Assembly (NCBI GenBank): GCA_020352515.1
Contig: CP070678.1
Location: 3,679,982-3,713,009 of the forward strand
DNA: 33,028 nt
Source of the DNA: Phycisphaerales bacterium
GTDB taxonomy: Bacteria; Planctomycetota; Phycisphaerae; Sedimentisphaerales; Anaerobacaceae
Direction of reading: 5' to 3'
In this document: positions 16,395 through 32,702 of the stretch, in pieces
How positions within the stretch are numbered: position 1 is the stretch's first letter
How the letters are laid out: each line of letters starts with the position of its first letter
The notes under the pieces: generated by a model
Databases searched by the model: none
Seen by the model: the letters and a program-made list of their open reading frames with translations, nothing else
Told to the model about the DNA's origin: nothing
Position numbers and translations under genes: made by a program

Positions 16395-16423
16395 TTGACA
16401 TCAACAAGGCGGACAAATAGAAT
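16395..16423 (+). promoter_or_regulatory. Near-consensus promoter giving a leaderless mRNA
   Basis: A perfect TTGACA (16395-16400), a 17-base spacer and TAGAAT (16418-16423) make the strongest promoter match in the window. Seven bases after the -10 box is the A of the ATG at 16431, so the mRNA would have no leader. The extended frame starting at the TTG of this very -35 box is therefore unlikely to be translated. Confidence 0.7.
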
Positions 16424-16430
16424 CAATACA

Positions 16431-18995
16431 ATGTCAACGAACGCTCAAGCCCTCCTCATTCTGGCCGCGCACGCCTGTGCGACGTCGGCCATCGTTGCAA
16501 AACCGGCCGCAAATCCGCTGCCGGCGCCGGCTGAATTCGAAATAGCAGCCCTTCGGTCGGCTATAGAAGATATTTCCGCAGCCTGCGGCGAGCGGTACTC
16601 AAACGCCGCCGACTATCTGGGGCGACTGGACAGGATCGAGCGCGGCCTTGACGCGTCAGGGCGGGACGACGTCTCGGGATTGGGGGGCGAATTGGCCGCC
16701 CTGCGCAGAGAAGCGTTGACAGCCAATCCGCTCGTGAGCGGCCGGCCCATCCTGTTCGTCGTACGAAACCAGTACAAGCCCGACCACCACAATACCGCCA
16801 CGATGTTCAAGACCGGCGAGATTAACACAAATAGTTTTCAGGGCGGCGGCGCCCTCAAGACGATCGACCTGGCCAAAGACGGGCAAGTCACGGTCCTCCT
16901 TGAGCTCAAAGACGGCGTGATCCGCGACCCCGATGTACACTTCAGCGGCCGCAGCGTCGTCTTCTCAATGCGCAGAGACATAGACGACGACTACCATATA
17001 TGCCGGATCAACGCCGATGGTACGGGTCTGACGCAGTTGACATACGCCAGAGGAGTTGCCGATTTCGACCCACTGTACCTGCCCGACGAGAGCATCGTTT
17101 TCTCCTCCACCAGAGAGCCGAAGTACTGCATGTGTAACCGCCACATTATGGGCAATCTCTTCAAGATGGACGCCGACGGGGCCAACATCCATCAGATTGG
17201 AAAGAGCACCCTGCACGAGGGACACGGGGCGCTGATGCCCGACGGACGCATCCTTTACGACCGGTGGGAATACGTGGACCGCAACTTCGGGGATGCCCAG
17301 GGGCTCTGGACGGTAAACCCGGACGGGACCTGCCACGCGGTTTACTGGGGCAACAACACGAACTCTCCGGGGGCCGTGCTCGATGCCCGGGTGATTCCCG
17401 GCACGCAGCAGGTTCTGTGCAACTTCAGCTCATGCCACGACCGTCCGTGGGGCGTTCTGGCGATCATCGACCGGCGGCTGGGCCTGGACGGGCGCGGCCC
17501 TGTTGTCAGGACCTGGCCGGCCAATGCAGTCGAGCGGGTCGGCAAGGGCAACTTCGACGCTTTCACCGGTGTAAGACCCAAGTACGAGGACCCATATCCT
17601 CTGAGCGAAAGATACTTTCTCTGTTCGCGGATGACCGGCAGGGGCGAGCAGATGGGGATATATCTTATCGACTTGTTTGGCAACGAGATATTGCTGCACG
17701 TCGAGGGCCCCGGCTGTTTTGACCCGATGCCGCTCGGCCCGCGGCCGCGCCCGCCCGTTGTCCCGTCGCGCCGCGACTTCCGCAACAGCTCCGGGCGGTT
17801 CTATGTCGTCAATGTTTACGAGGGGACCCACATGGAGGGTGTCAGGCATGGGGCCGTCAAGTACCTGCGCGTGGTTGAGTCGCCGGAGAAGCGCTCATGG
17901 ACCCATCCGGCGTGGAGCGGCCAAGGGGTGCACTGTCCCGCGATGAACTGGCACGCCTTCGAGAACAAGAGAATACTCGGCACGGTGCCGGTCGAGGAGG
18001 ACGGCTCGGCATACTTCGAGGTCCCGGCCGACCGATTTGTGTACTTTCAGCTTCTCGATGCGAACAAAATGATGGTCCAGTCGATGCGGAGCGGGACGAT
18101 CGTCCAGTCGGGCGAGCTTACCGGGTGCACGGGCTGCCACGACAATCGTCGCGCGGCGCCGCCGCAGTTGAGAACAAAGATGCCGATGGCCATGATGCGG
18201 GCGCCCTCCCAGATGAGCGGGGGGGGTGAGGCGCGATTGTTCAGCTACATCGACGAGGTCCAGCCGGTCTTCGACAGGCACTGTGTGAGCTGTCACGATT
18301 ACGGGAAGGAGGCCGGAGAGACGCTCCTGCTCGCGCGCGACCGCACGAACACTTTTAACACGTCCTACAACGAGCTGTGGAGAAAAAAGTACATCAAGCC
18401 CATCGGCGCCGGACCGCACGAGATACAACAGGCCTATTCCTGGGGCTCGCACGAAAGCCGACTCATCGGGATTCTGCTCGACGGGCACGAGGAGGTCAAA
18501 CTATCCAAAGAAGAATTGCAGACCATCGCAGCGTGGATAGACATCAACGGGCCTTACTACCCGTTCTATGAGAGCGCCTACCCTGACAACCTGGCGGGCA
18601 GAAGCCCGCTTGACGATAACCAGCTTCGTCGCCTCACGGAACTAACAGGCGTTCAATTTGCCCGCCTGGCCGGTCACTCGGCAAATGCCGGGCCTCAGAT
18701 CAGTTTCGACCGCCCCGAATTGAGTCCGTGCATCCAAAAACTAAAAGACAGCAACGACGTCCGTTACGTGGAGGCGCTGGCCATCATTCAAGCAGGCGGC
18801 CGGATGCTCCACGAGCGTCCCCGCGCCGACATGGCGGGCTTTGTCCCCTGCCCCCTTGACCGCCGGCGGCTGGAAATGTATGCCGCGCGACAGCAGGCCG
18901 AATCCCGCAATCGCCGGGCGATTCGCCGCGGCGGCAAGCTCTACGAAACACCGGCCCGCCCGACAGACCGGGCTGATGTTAGCTTTCCGGATTGA
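16431..18995 (+). CDS. HzsA-related c-type cytochrome / beta-propeller protein
   Basis: The 854-residue exported protein resembles the alpha subunit of hydrazine synthase in layout. A signal peptide (about 1-24) and a helical segment (about 35-95) precede a TolB/WD-like propeller: blades such as VHFSGRSVVFSMRR, DGTGLTQLT and DADGANIHQIG fall between about 100 and 440. A middle domain carries CTGCH (Cys566-His570), and a C-terminal cytochrome domain carries CVSCH (Cys618-His622). Two haems c are therefore expected. In hydrazine synthase a Tyr four residues after the first CxxCH His is, as I recall, the axial ligand; here that place is Arg574. No HzsB/C genes are near, so hydrazine synthesis is unlikely. 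Such relatives are common in non-anammox planctomycetes and their substrate is unknown. The 3' end overlaps the convergent TolC-like gene by 17 bases. Confidence 0.88.
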   Translation: MSTNAQALLILAAHACATSAIVAKPAANPLPAPAEFEIAALRSAIEDISAACGERYSNAADYLGRLDRIERGLDASGRDDVSGLGGELAALRREALTANPLVSGRPILFVVRNQYKPDHHNTATMFKTGEINTNSFQGGGALKTIDLAKDGQVTVLLELKDGVIRDPDVHFSGRSVVFSMRRDIDDDYHICRINADGTGLTQLTYARGVADFDPLYLPDESIVFSSTREPKYCMCNRHIMGNLFKMDADGANIHQIGKSTLHEGHGALMPDGRILYDRWEYVDRNFGDAQGLWTVNPDGTCHAVYWGNNTNSPGAVLDARVIPGTQQVLCNFSSCHDRPWGVLAIIDRRLGLDGRGPVVRTWPANAVERVGKGNFDAFTGVRPKYEDPYPLSERYFLCSRMTGRGEQMGIYLIDLFGNEILLHVEGPGCFDPMPLGPRPRPPVVPSRRDFRNSSGRFYVVNVYEGTHMEGVRHGAVKYLRVVESPEKRSWTHPAWSGQGVHCPAMNWHAFENKRILGTVPVEEDGSAYFEVPADRFVYFQLLDANKMMVQSMRSGTIVQSGELTGCTGCHDNRRAAPPQLRTKMPMAMMRAPSQMSGGGEARLFSYIDEVQPVFDRHCVSCHDYGKEAGETLLLARDRTNTFNTSYNELWRKKYIKPIGAGPHEIQQAYSWGSHESRLIGILLDGHEEVKLSKEELQTIAAWIDINGPYYPFYESAYPDNLAGRSPLDDNQLRRLTELTGVQFARLAGHSANAGPQISFDRPELSPCIQKLKDSNDVRYVEALAIIQAGGRMLHERPRADMAGFVPCPLDRRRLEMYAARQQAESRNRRAIRRGGKLYETPARPTDRADVSFPD

Positions 18996-28398: not shown

Positions 28399-30939
28399 TC
28401 ACGGCCGGCTGCGCGGCTCCACGCCAAGCAGGTGACGCACGAAAAAATCCATACGCCTGCGCCTCGCATACGGCGTCTCACCGACACCGTGACCTCGCCC
28501 CGGGACTATCAGCAGATCGAAATCCTTGTCCGCCTTGATAAGAGCATCCACGACCTGCATCGTCGAGGCCGGGTCCACGTTCCTGTCAAGCTCTCCGACC
28601 GTCAGCAGAAGCTTGCCCTGGAGCCTGTGGGCCTGCGTGACGTTGGATTGCTGCTCGTAGTGAGGGCCGATAGGCCAGCCCATCCACAGCTCGTTCCACC
28701 AAATCTTGTCCATCCGGTTGTCGTGGCAGCCGCAGTCTGCTACCCCGACCTTGTAGAACTCCCCGTGGGCCAGCAGCCCGCGCAGCGCGCTCTGTCCGCC
28801 GGCGGATCCGCCGTATATGCCCACCCGGCTCAGGTCCATGCACGGATACCTGTCCGCCGCCGCCTTCATCCACAGAATCCGGTCGGGAAAACCGCTGTCG
28901 CCCAGATTCTTCCAGCAAACGTCGTGAAACGCCTTCGAGCGGTAAGATGTCCCCATGCCGTCAATCTGTACAACAATGAAACCAAGTTCGGCGATAGAGT
29001 GCTGGCGACCCTGAAGCCCGAACGATTTCGGCACAAACGCCCCCTGGGGGCCGGCGTAAATCTGTTCTATCACCGGGTACCTGCGATTGGGGTCGAAATT
29101 GCTCGGGCGGATAATTATCCCGTAGATGTCCGTCTTGCCGTCGCGGCCCTTTGCCACAAACCGCTCGGGGGTTTGCCAGCCCGTCTTCAACAGTTCGCCC
29201 CAGTCGGCCCGCTCCAGCTCGCAGATTAGTTGCCCGTCGTTGGCGTCTCGCAATTCGGTCACGCCCGGCTGGTCCACCCGCGACCAACCGTCAATCAAGA
29301 ATCGGCGATCCGGCGAAAACTCGACTCTGTGGGTGCCGTCCCCTTCGGTGAGCACGGTAAGACCCGAACCGTCGAGATTCACGCGGCAGAAATGGATATA
29401 ATAGGGGTCCTGCTCCGGCCGGATACCCCCGGCCTGAAACCAGATTTGCCTCTTGTCCTCGTCGACACGCTCCACGCGGCGCACCACCCACGGGCCTTTG
29501 GTGATCTGGTTCTTGACGCGCCCGGTTCCCGCATCGTACAGGTACAGGTGATTCCATCCGTCCCGCTCGGACATCCATATTATCTCGTTGGTCGCGTCGA
29601 TGTGGCGGCTGAATCGCTTGCCTGCGTAGTCTATGAACGTTTTGCTCTTCTCCTCGATAACCGCCGAGGCCTCTCCACTCTTGGCGTCCACACCCACCAC
29701 CCGCAGGATCTGGTGGCCGCGCTGGTTGTACAGAAACGTGAACCGGCTCGAGTCGGGCCGCCAGCGAATATCCGATATGCTCCACGGATTGCGAAAAAGC
29801 TCGTCGGAAATCGGAATCCGGCGCCTGTTCGCGACGTCGAACAAGTGCGGCTTCGATATGTCTATCTGGTCGCCCGGCTTGGCGTAAGAGAGGTTGTGCA
29901 GTTTCGGCTGCAACTGGTCATCCGGCGACGACTCGATCAGGTACACCTTCCTGTCGTCTCCCCTGGCTACGCGCACGGCCACCAGCCTGCTCGAATCAGG
30001 CGACCAGTAGAGACGCTGTGAATACGCATCTGCCTCGGTGCCGTCGGAAGTCAACGCGATCTCCTCGTCGCCTGGGGTCTGGCGCACATAGAGGTTGTAG
30101 TCCCTGATAAAGGCAAGCCACTTGCCGTCGGGCGATGCGCCACGGCGCTCATCCCTTGGCCGCCCCCTTCCCCGCCCCCGGCCCTGCTCGCGAAGCGTCT
30201 CTTCCTCTATCAGCGCCTGGCCTTCTTCTTCGGTAGCCTCGAAAACTGCAACCCGCCCCCCGTCCTCATCCGTCACCAGCCAGACGTGGCCGGCATAGGT
30301 ATGCTGCCGATGCCGCCCCCCGGCCTGAAGCGTCACGTAGCGCCGACGCTGCCTTTGAGAGTCGACCCAGTAAACCTCCAGGCTTCCCTTCGTGCGGTTT
30401 ATAAACGTAATCCAGGTCTCCGCGCCCGTGCGGACGCTCGGACGGATCCGAACGCCGGCCTCGAGCGAGCCGGCCGCCTGCTCATCTGCCGAAAGCTCCT
30501 CCAGAGCGTAGTCGGCCGTATTGCATCTCCAGCGTTTGCCCCCAAAACTGAACAGAAGCTCCGAGCCCGACTCGTCAAAATCAAGCCTGTCTATCGCCAG
30601 TCGCTTTGCATCCATCTCTTTGCCTGTGGCTTCGGCCAGGGCCGCGGCAAGACGCCCGTGGTCGAACGCCGCGCGACGCACGCCGGAGCCGGCATTGACG
30701 AAAATGTACTCGCGCACCCCGTCCGCCAGGTCGTTGCGATACCAGAAACGCACGTTGTCGCTCAGCCAGCGGGCGCGAACCCGCTGCTTGAAGACCTTGT
30801 TGGCCGTAACCCTGGGCAGATTCTTCGCCCGCTCATAATCGGAACGCGTGCCCTGGGCCGGAACATCCCGCGCGGAAAGAAGAGACATTGCGACTATCAC
30901 GGCTTGTGCGGCCGCTCTCAACTGAATGTTGACTTTCAT
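28399..30939 (-). CDS. Exported S9 (DPP-IV-like) peptidase with VHL beta-domain
   Basis: This prolyl-oligopeptidase-family enzyme should remove dipeptides after proline-like residues outside the cytoplasm. Of 846 residues, 1-29 are a signal peptide (AVIVAMSLLSARDVPAQG). The DPPIV N-terminal propeller spans about 35-600 and the alpha/beta-hydrolase domain about 610-846, with Ser712 (YGGSAGG), Asp785 (GELDRNVD) and His817 (PGRGHGVG). Unusually, residues about 164-245 match the beta-domain of the von Hippel-Lindau protein: Trp191, Tyr201, Thr214, Tyr215, His218 and Trp220 align without gaps to pVHL Trp88, Tyr98, Ser111, Tyr112, His115 and Trp117. Next comes an Arg/Gly-rich stretch (about 250-265). 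CAGGA precedes the ATG. The gene is divergent from the Tat-exported isomerase-like gene. Confidence 0.92.
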   Translation of the reverse strand: MKVNIQLRAAAQAVIVAMSLLSARDVPAQGTRSDYERAKNLPRVTANKVFKQRVRARWLSDNVRFWYRNDLADGVREYIFVNAGSGVRRAAFDHGRLAAALAEATGKEMDAKRLAIDRLDFDESGSELLFSFGGKRWRCNTADYALEELSADEQAAGSLEAGVRIRPSVRTGAETWITFINRTKGSLEVYWVDSQRQRRRYVTLQAGGRHRQHTYAGHVWLVTDEDGGRVAVFEATEEEGQALIEEETLREQGRGRGRGRPRDERRGASPDGKWLAFIRDYNLYVRQTPGDEEIALTSDGTEADAYSQRLYWSPDSSRLVAVRVARGDDRKVYLIESSPDDQLQPKLHNLSYAKPGDQIDISKPHLFDVANRRRIPISDELFRNPWSISDIRWRPDSSRFTFLYNQRGHQILRVVGVDAKSGEASAVIEEKSKTFIDYAGKRFSRHIDATNEIIWMSERDGWNHLYLYDAGTGRVKNQITKGPWVVRRVERVDEDKRQIWFQAGGIRPEQDPYYIHFCRVNLDGSGLTVLTEGDGTHRVEFSPDRRFLIDGWSRVDQPGVTELRDANDGQLICELERADWGELLKTGWQTPERFVAKGRDGKTDIYGIIIRPSNFDPNRRYPVIEQIYAGPQGAFVPKSFGLQGRQHSIAELGFIVVQIDGMGTSYRSKAFHDVCWKNLGDSGFPDRILWMKAAADRYPCMDLSRVGIYGGSAGGQSALRGLLAHGEFYKVGVADCGCHDNRMDKIWWNELWMGWPIGPHYEQQSNVTQAHRLQGKLLLTVGELDRNVDPASTMQVVDALIKADKDFDLLIVPGRGHGVGETPYARRRRMDFFVRHLLGVEPRSRP

Positions 30940-31253: not shown

Positions 31254-32702
31254 ATGAGACAACCCGATCTTCAAAAGCCGTCAAGCATGTCGCGCAGAGG
31301 TTTTCTGCAGGCCGTCGGCGGAACGGCCGCGGCCGTCTCGCTCAGCTCGGCTCGCCTGAGCGCCGGCGCCCCACAAAACAAGGGAGCCCCCGGCAAGCCG
31401 GCGACCGTCCGCTGCGCGTTTCTCTATCCCCCGACCGAATCACTCACAAGAGTCGGCTACTATAGCTGGCCCGGCTCGAGCTTCGACGCCGAGGGCCGCC
31501 AGAAACAATATGAAGCCGGGCTGAGAACGATTGAGCAGCGCCTGGGAATGAAGATACTAACCGACGGCCCCGTACTCGATCAGGCCGCTGACGTGGCCGC
31601 CTTCATCGAACAGGTGAAAGAATCCCCGCCCGACGGGCTGCTCCTGGTGCTCTTCAAAAAGGGCCATTGGCCACACGTGCTCCGTATCATCGAACAAACC
31701 GAGCTGCCGACGGTTATACTCGCCACGCTCGGAATACTGCTCGTCGACCACATAAACCAGGTCCGCGAACGCCCCGGCGTTTACCTTATCAACTCGCTCG
31801 ACAACCTCGACGCCGTCGAGGACGGCATGAACATGATAAGGACCGTACGCTGGATGAAGGACAGCCGAATCCTCAACATCGCCGGCTCACAAGAAAGAGA
31901 ATCCACCGTCCCGCACCTTGGCACGCGCATCCGGACCGTGCCCGGAGCAAGCTTCATCGAGCAGTTCAACAGCACCGAAACCGACGACGCCGTCAGGAAG
32001 CTCGCCGATAGCTACATGAAAGACGCACAACAGGTCGTCGAGCCAACAAAAGCCGACATCCTCGACGCCGCAAAAACTTACTTCGTGCTCAAGAAAATGA
32101 TCAGGGCCGAGAACGCCCAGGCGGTAATGATGGACTGCCTGCCCGGGCTCAAAAGGCCCCACAAGCATCCCCCGCCATGCATGGGCTTTATGAGCCTGCG
32201 AGATGAGGGCATCCCGGCAGGCTGCCAGGCGGACCTGAGAGCCACGCTCACCCTTATGCTCGTTCAACAGCTCTTCGACCGGCCCGGGTTCCAGCAGAAC
32301 GCCTCCATGGAGACCGAGGCGAATCACTACTTCGGCGCACACTGCACGTGCCCGTCCAAATTGAGGGGCACGAACGCTGCGCCTGAGCCGTACATATTGA
32401 TGAGTCACGCAGAGGCCGGCTGGGGTTGTGTGCCGCGTGTCCTCTGGCCGGTGGGCGAGCAAGTGACACTGGCGCAGTATGTCACCGCCGAGACGCCGCA
32501 GATGTATGTCTATAGCGGAAAAGTCGTCGGCTGCCCGCCCATTCCGGCGACCGGTGGCTGCCGCACGAATATCCAGATGACGATCAATGAGGTGGAGGAC
32601 GTCTGCCGCGTCAAGGGGATGCACCAGGTCATATTCTTAGGCAACCACGCCCGGCAGCTCAAGGCTTTCTGCCGGCTCCATCGCATCGCCGTTGTTACCT
32701 GA
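31254..32702 (+). CDS. Tat-exported L-fucose isomerase-like protein
   Basis: The 482-residue product begins with a twin-arginine signal (SRRGFLQAVGGTAAAVSL at 13-30), so it should be folded in the cytosol and exported. The mature part resembles the FucI/AraA-related group of sugar isomerases: an N-terminal alpha/beta domain up to about 300, then GCQADLRATLTLMLVQQLFDRPG and an AHCTCP motif that are typical of its C-terminal domain. Sugar isomerases are normally cytosolic, so the role of an exported member is open; it could be a lyase, isomerase or binding protein for fucose-like sugars. AAGGA stands before the ATG. It is followed 121 bases later by a Tat-exported sulfatase, which suggests joint action on sulfated polysaccharide. 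Family assignment is moderately sure, reaction unknown. Confidence 0.8.
   Translation: MRQPDLQKPSSMSRRGFLQAVGGTAAAVSLSSARLSAGAPQNKGAPGKPATVRCAFLYPPTESLTRVGYYSWPGSSFDAEGRQKQYEAGLRTIEQRLGMKILTDGPVLDQAADVAAFIEQVKESPPDGLLLVLFKKGHWPHVLRIIEQTELPTVILATLGILLVDHINQVRERPGVYLINSLDNLDAVEDGMNMIRTVRWMKDSRILNIAGSQERESTVPHLGTRIRTVPGASFIEQFNSTETDDAVRKLADSYMKDAQQVVEPTKADILDAAKTYFVLKKMIRAENAQAVMMDCLPGLKRPHKHPPPCMGFMSLRDEGIPAGCQADLRATLTLMLVQQLFDRPGFQQNASMETEANHYFGAHCTCPSKLRGTNAAPEPYILMSHAEAGWGCVPRVLWPVGEQVTLAQYVTAETPQMYVYSGKVVGCPPIPATGGCRTNIQMTINEVEDVCRVKGMHQVIFLGNHARQLKAFCRLHRIAVVT

Follow-up and report, generated by a model that had tools for sequence, protein, structure and literature searches.

Results

An S9 peptidase gene with an inserted domain

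The window, i.e., the whole stretch of 33,028 nucleotides that was analysed, carries on its minus strand a gene for an S9 (DPP-IV-like) peptidase, the features of which are collected in Table 1. Judged by eye, the sequence likely begins with a signal peptide and the enzyme is probably secreted. The AF2 model of the full-length protein, computed from 58 aligned homologues, reached a mean pLDDT of 89.8, and the best structural matches in VIA were DPP4/8/9 and prolyl tripeptidyl aminopeptidase (Z 30-32.5); a propeller joined to a hydrolase domain with a Ser-Asp-His triad places the protein in the S9 clan. The adjoining gene (31254-32699, plus strand) encodes a protein of 482 residues that bears a Tat-like signal and matches no Pfam family; in relatives it was not seen adjoining the S9 gene. 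Elsewhere in the window (16395-18992, plus strand), a protein of 866 residues contains the middle domain of a hydrazine synthase alpha-subunit (PF18582).

Table 1. Features of the S9 peptidase gene; positions are those of the window, and pocket counts refer to 64 S9-VHL domains.
Feature	Position	Strand	Basis
S9 (DPP-IV-like) peptidase gene, 846 aa	28399..30939	-	ORF; Pfam DPPIV_N 170 bits, Peptidase_S9 152 bits
Propeller, first part, residues 36-160, precedes the inserted domain	30460..30834	-	Model strands
VHL beta domain, residues 164-245	30205..30450	-	PF01847, phmmer, domain model
Trp191 (pVHL Trp88)	30367..30369	-	Trp in 64/64
Tyr201 (pVHL Tyr98)	30337..30339	-	Tyr in 63/64
Thr214-Tyr215 (pVHL Ser111-Tyr112)	30295..30300	-	Thr 60 and Ser 4; Phe 47 and Tyr 17 of 64
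His218 (pVHL His115)	30286..30288	-	His in 62/64; remaining two Asp
Trp220 (pVHL Trp117)	30280..30282	-	Trp in 63/64
Propeller, remainder, residues about 267-610	29110..30141	-	Pfam DPPIV_N 268-558
Alpha/beta hydrolase domain; triad Ser712, Asp785, His817; rebuilt S1 pocket A713, C738, N741, D744, W748	28402..29109	-	Pfam Peptidase_S9

The inserted segment is a VHL beta domain

The von Hippel-Lindau protein (pVHL) recognises HIF for the CRL2 E3 ligase. A first-pass annotation of this DNA had recognised its beta domain in residues 164-245 of the peptidase, and these residues correspond exactly to 30205-30450 of the window in the minus-strand ORF 28399-30939. The Pfam profile PF01847 matched the full protein with 26.0 bits and the segment with 30.1 bits (cut-off 21), and a phmmer search against solved structures (PDB) returned the gapless alignment with human pVHL that had been claimed, running from Trp88 to past Trp117 (E 1.1e-5). 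The VHL hit is thus significant, and the residues do not belong to a propeller blade; in the full-length model they are predicted to form a separate domain outside the propeller, with a seven-strand unit at residues 174-244. As fold searches with the full model listed DPP-like chains only, the domain was folded separately, giving a model of pLDDT 87.9 whose seven strands are those of the pVHL beta sandwich. With this model pVHL was present in all matches listed by Foldseek (TM 0.73-0.80), and the best matches in VIA were all pVHL (Z 13.0, with 82 residues aligned at 1.4 A and 26% identity), the entry with bound hydroxyproline, 4awj, being nearly equal to the best (Z 12.8). Residues 164-245 are thus a VHL beta domain. 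No second VHL-type Pfam match that could correspond to the alpha domain with its Elongin C binding box was found in the protein; in the model, the end of the VHL domain leads into a low-confidence linker and then into the next propeller blade.

The VHL domain is a cassette at a blade junction

Fifteen close relatives of the S9-VHL peptidase have, in place of the VHL domain, a short linker that is often rich in Arg and Gly. On the tree of the remaining protein the presence or absence of the domain requires 10 changes, at least 5 of which are forced by well-supported branches. The VHL domain is therefore a clean cassette at a junction of propeller blades that has been repeatedly lost in relatives. 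The insertion point lies four strands ahead of the segment that carries the double-Glu helix in DPP enzymes, one blade earlier, and because of this four-strand spacing the domain is inserted in the same type of connector and on the same face of the propeller as that helix. The likely entrance has been described as a side opening that lies between propeller and catalytic domain, and blades 1-3 as barely touching the latter (PMC5807507). It seems reasonable to infer that the VHL domain stands at the mouth of this side opening. We also considered peptidase residues that differ between members with and without VHL, and set them aside since the columns concerned are only weakly conserved and none lies in the active site.

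The residues of the hydroxyproline pocket are kept

Of the residues that surround hydroxyproline in pVHL, Ser111 and His115 bind its hydroxyl group and Tyr98 binds its carbonyl, while Trp88 and Trp117 are part of the cage (PMC9528729). All six correspondences proposed in the first-pass annotation (W191, Y201, T214, Y215, H218, and W220 with pVHL W88, Y98, S111, Y112, H115, and W117) hold, as do the Trp-Tyr spacing of 10 and the Tyr-His spacing of 17. Among 64 S9-VHL domains, the others of which are 24-57% identical to that of the window, the six pocket columns rank 1, 2, 3, 5, 6, and 7 of 91 in a conservation score that gives extra weight to rare residues, Trp and His among them; rank 4 is taken by Asn78. 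This exceptional conservation is also apparent in the entropies, five of the six pocket columns having, Asn78 aside, the lowest values in the domain. All six residues are kept in 60 of the 64 domains, and the column of Tyr112 alternates between Phe and Tyr. Such near-invariance over 64 homologues excludes a chance origin of the pocket; as judged from the alignment, no part of the VHL domain is better conserved in the S9 peptidase clade than the presumed hydroxyproline pocket. The Thr found at the Ser111 position is shared with Drosophila VHL, a functional HIF binder (PMC4195687).

Could these residues simply be kept for the fold, the VHL domain being a mere spacer or stabiliser in the propeller? 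VHL domains on other bacterial proteins allow this to be weighed. They are found on sulfatases, carbohydrate esterases, GH127-type proteins, ATLF/M90-like metallopeptidases, and proteins with LRR and kinase domains. Both pocket Trp are retained there, Asn78 is present in every bacterial VHL domain counted, and the aromatic core of pVHL includes Trp117 (PMC3688787), so that the near-universal retention of Trp88, Trp117, and Asn78, whether on peptidases or on other proteins, is what a structural role would predict. The remaining residues behave differently: among 35 non-peptidase VHL domains, which are not independent as they include paralogues from single genomes, His115 is kept in 18 against 41 of 42 domains on S9 peptidases, Tyr98 in 28 against 42 of 42, and Tyr112 in 23 against 39 of 42. 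His115 is thus dispensable for the fold, since 17 of the 35 domains on other proteins have lost it while still matching the profile. As the peptidase also exists without the domain in the fifteen relatives described above, we regard the spacer explanation as quite unlikely.

Many proteins of the window's phylum carry VHL as a C-terminal add-on, including sulfatases, SASA esterases, GH127-type proteins, LRR proteins, and a protein kinase with MORN repeats (loci L106, L110, L113-L121, L126, L129, and L130); several of these add-ons lack His115 and may read another ligand. At four loci (L090, L098, L107, and L112) VHL occurs together with metallopeptidase-like domains that are distant kin of the M90/ATLF Pfam models, i.e., on a second type of peptidase.

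The catalytic domain is not that of DPP IV

In dipeptidyl peptidase IV, an S9B exopeptidase, the double-Glu motif anchors the N terminus of the substrate and an aromatic S1 pocket holds the P1 proline. The segment that holds this motif, as described for DPP enzymes (PMC5807507), is missing here: an 11-residue gap relative to P. gingivalis PTP stands near residues 300-305. The catalytic triad and the S1 columns are invariant across 80-81 homologues, and in 81 sequences the S1 Trp and Tyr (W659 and Y662 of DPP4) are replaced by invariant Asn741 and Asp744. With neither the double-Glu segment nor an aromatic S1 pocket for a P1 proline, the DPP IV identity was rejected, and the earlier description of the enzyme as a proline-directed peptidase is not supported. 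The rebuilt S1 pocket is common to members of the clade with and without VHL. C738, N741, D744, K745, W747, and W748 form a clade-wide, invariant, and partly polar stand-in for the S1 pocket of DPP, which could itself suit hydroxyproline.

Hydroxyproline genes beside the S9 clade

Clustering of the flanks of 80 homologues revealed three loci, spread over two phyla, in which a gene of the proline racemase family adjoins the S9 gene. By profile search, a PF05544 gene (proline racemase family) lies within 5 kb of the S9-clade gene in 5 of the 80 genomes (G309, G572, G600, G295, and G599), where 0.135 would be expected (Poisson P about 3e-7). The three PF05544 proteins tested matched best the NCBIfam 4-hydroxyproline epimerase, below its strict equivalog cut-offs, with proline racemase far weaker; each of the four complete proteins retains both catalytic Cys, the fifth gene being broken at a contig end. 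Breakdown of t4Hyp, as set out in PMC4113996, involves the enzyme families 4HypE (4-hydroxyproline 2-epimerase), DAAO, DHDPS, and ALDH. Genes near those of PF05544 include FAD oxidases of the DAO family (cis-4-Hyp oxidase-type), DHDPS-family (DapA-type) genes, and, in G295, an aldehyde dehydrogenase gene; the four families are seen over the loci taken together, no single locus having been found to combine all of them. A sixth linked case, G547, turned up among 241 genomes sampled independently from the phylum of G299: five genes on one strand (L266:4559-12197) encode aminopeptidase P, 4-hydroxyproline epimerase, the S9-VHL peptidase, a peptide transporter of the POT family, and a DAO oxidase. 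The control family PF13640 (prolyl-4-hydroxylase type) has 21 genes in 36 of the genomes, and none of them is as close as 5 kb to the S9 gene.

At the level of whole genomes, PF05544 is found in 13 of 42 genomes of the window's phylum with any VHL against 36 of 252 (P 0.013), and in 4 of 18 VHL genomes against 15 of 223 in the second sample (P 0.042), both comparisons ignoring genome size and kinship. Most of the 80 genomes have no hydroxyproline gene linked to the S9 gene. We considered and rejected VHL as the cause of the linkage: the epimerase is about equally common in genomes with and without it (41/65 and 8/15), and the domain is missing from two of the six S9 genes that show the linkage (G295 and G599). 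The linkage is accordingly ascribed to the S9 clade as a whole, VHL being the likely substrate grip. It is worthy to note that many of these loci stem from metagenome bins and that some species labels are implausible; L018, L038, L046, and L079, labelled Klebsiella pneumoniae or Akkermansia muciniphila, group with uncultured Verrucomicrobiota and are probably mislabelled bins.

Profile searches of the window's own genome gave no match to PF05544 and none to PF13640, so that its use of hydroxyproline, if any, follows another route or stops at peptides; the t4Hyp cluster next to the S9 gene is seen, in part, in relatives. GH127 (arabinofuranosidase) includes enzymes for Hyp-linked arabinose, and some 6 kb separate the S9-VHL gene from a gene fusing GH127 and SASA domains that lies just outside the window (G000:C1:3717119-3720124, i.e., L265:7120-10125). 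This proximity was discarded as evidence: GH127-type neighbours occur at 4 of 80 loci, yet the genome has 10 GH127 matches, and it may be due to chance.

The searches for prolyl hydroxylases bear on a bacterial counterpart of PHD-VHL signalling, in which the domain would act on endogenous hydroxylated proteins. Some relatives do possess 2OG-Fe(II) oxygenases of the prolyl-4-hydroxylase type. Against this, the window's genome lacks PF13640, the family is not significantly enriched with VHL (9/42 against 34/252, P 0.24; 5/26 against 5/10), and the protein looks secreted; endogenous hydroxylation was accordingly rejected, and we consider signalling of this kind very improbable.

Discussion

Prolyl hydroxylation has its textbook reader in VHL, known from animals, and we know of no credible function for its bacterial counterparts so far. 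That bacterial VHL domains exist is already established (Pfam; PMC9002001). In the open-access literature we found no paper placing VHL in a peptidase or tying it to the scavenging of hydroxyproline, and the retention of the pocket in a peptidase, together with the hydroxyproline gene context, looks new.

We propose, with a probability of roughly two in three, that this secreted S9 peptidase uses its inserted VHL beta domain as a substrate grip that binds trans-4-hydroxyproline peptides and serves hydroxyproline catabolism. The VHL domain would bind trans-4-hydroxyproline within a peptide in the same pocket with which pVHL binds HIF and would hand the chain to the catalytic cleft; the freed hydroxyproline peptides would then be trimmed, imported, and, in those relatives whose clusters encode the pathway, burned via the 4-hydroxyproline pathway. 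The recognition of hydroxyproline suggested in the first-pass annotation is thus favoured by the VHL domain, its conserved pocket, and the gene context of the clade, with the proline-directed peptidase no longer part of it and the ligand deduced from the pocket. By the same reasoning the pocket should bind hydroxyproline and the catalytic domain should cleave hydroxyproline-containing chains, the domain probably gripping such proteins as food.

A functional pocket could nevertheless serve another target, such as unmodified proline, another small residue, or a segment of the protein itself or of its dimer partner. Ser111 is replaced by Thr and Arg69 by Gly, the surroundings of the pocket are unlike those of pVHL, and the absence of an epimerase from the window's own genome would also fit; since every residue that touches the ring and hydroxyl of hydroxyproline is retained, including both hydrogen-bonding residues, and relatives are located in hydroxyproline catabolic clusters, another target appears rather unlikely. 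If the VHL domain is indeed a hydroxyproline grip, bacterial VHL domains gain a function, and a bacterial route of attack is suggested on collagen and on the Hyp-rich glycoproteins of plants and algae, a sizeable and hard-to-digest pool. It is tempting to speculate, although we hold it doubtful, that hydroxyproline reading by the VHL pocket is an old device of bacterial nutrient scavenging, independent of and maybe older than the oxygen sensing of animals, and was reused by animal pVHL; the origin of this reading, at least, becomes testable.

Comparison with known systems helps to situate the enzyme. With the beta domain of pVHL it shares the fold, 26% sequence identity, the gapless pocket stretch, and all residues of the hydroxyproline cage, and with Drosophila VHL the Thr at the Ser111 position. 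In contrast to pVHL, which has an alpha domain with an Elongin C box, neither was detected here and the domain forms part of a probably secreted peptidase; in the S9-VHL family Gly takes the place of Arg69 and other HIF contacts also differ. The Litorilituus protein EMK97_00595, to which tumour-suppressor activity was assigned by similarity (PMC9002001), is likewise secreted and has the same Pfam domain PF01847, but its report mentions neither a peptidase nor a hydroxyproline pathway context. In the sections of PMC4113996 and PMC6608401 drawn on here, t4Hyp catabolic clusters comprise the same enzyme families as those beside the S9 clade, and in Streptomyces a secreted collagenase is co-regulated with the cluster, whereas an S9-VHL peptidase is not among the components described there. 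Finally, bacterial DPP IV and prolyl tripeptidyl peptidase (S9B; PDB 2ecf, 5yp1, and 2d5l) have the same propeller-hydrolase architecture and Ser-Asp-His triad; their S1 residues Val, Trp, Tyr, and Tyr are replaced throughout the S9 clade by invariant Cys738, Asn741, Asp744, and Trp748, and where those enzymes have the double-Glu segment, the S9-VHL peptidase lacks it and carries a VHL cassette between its blades.
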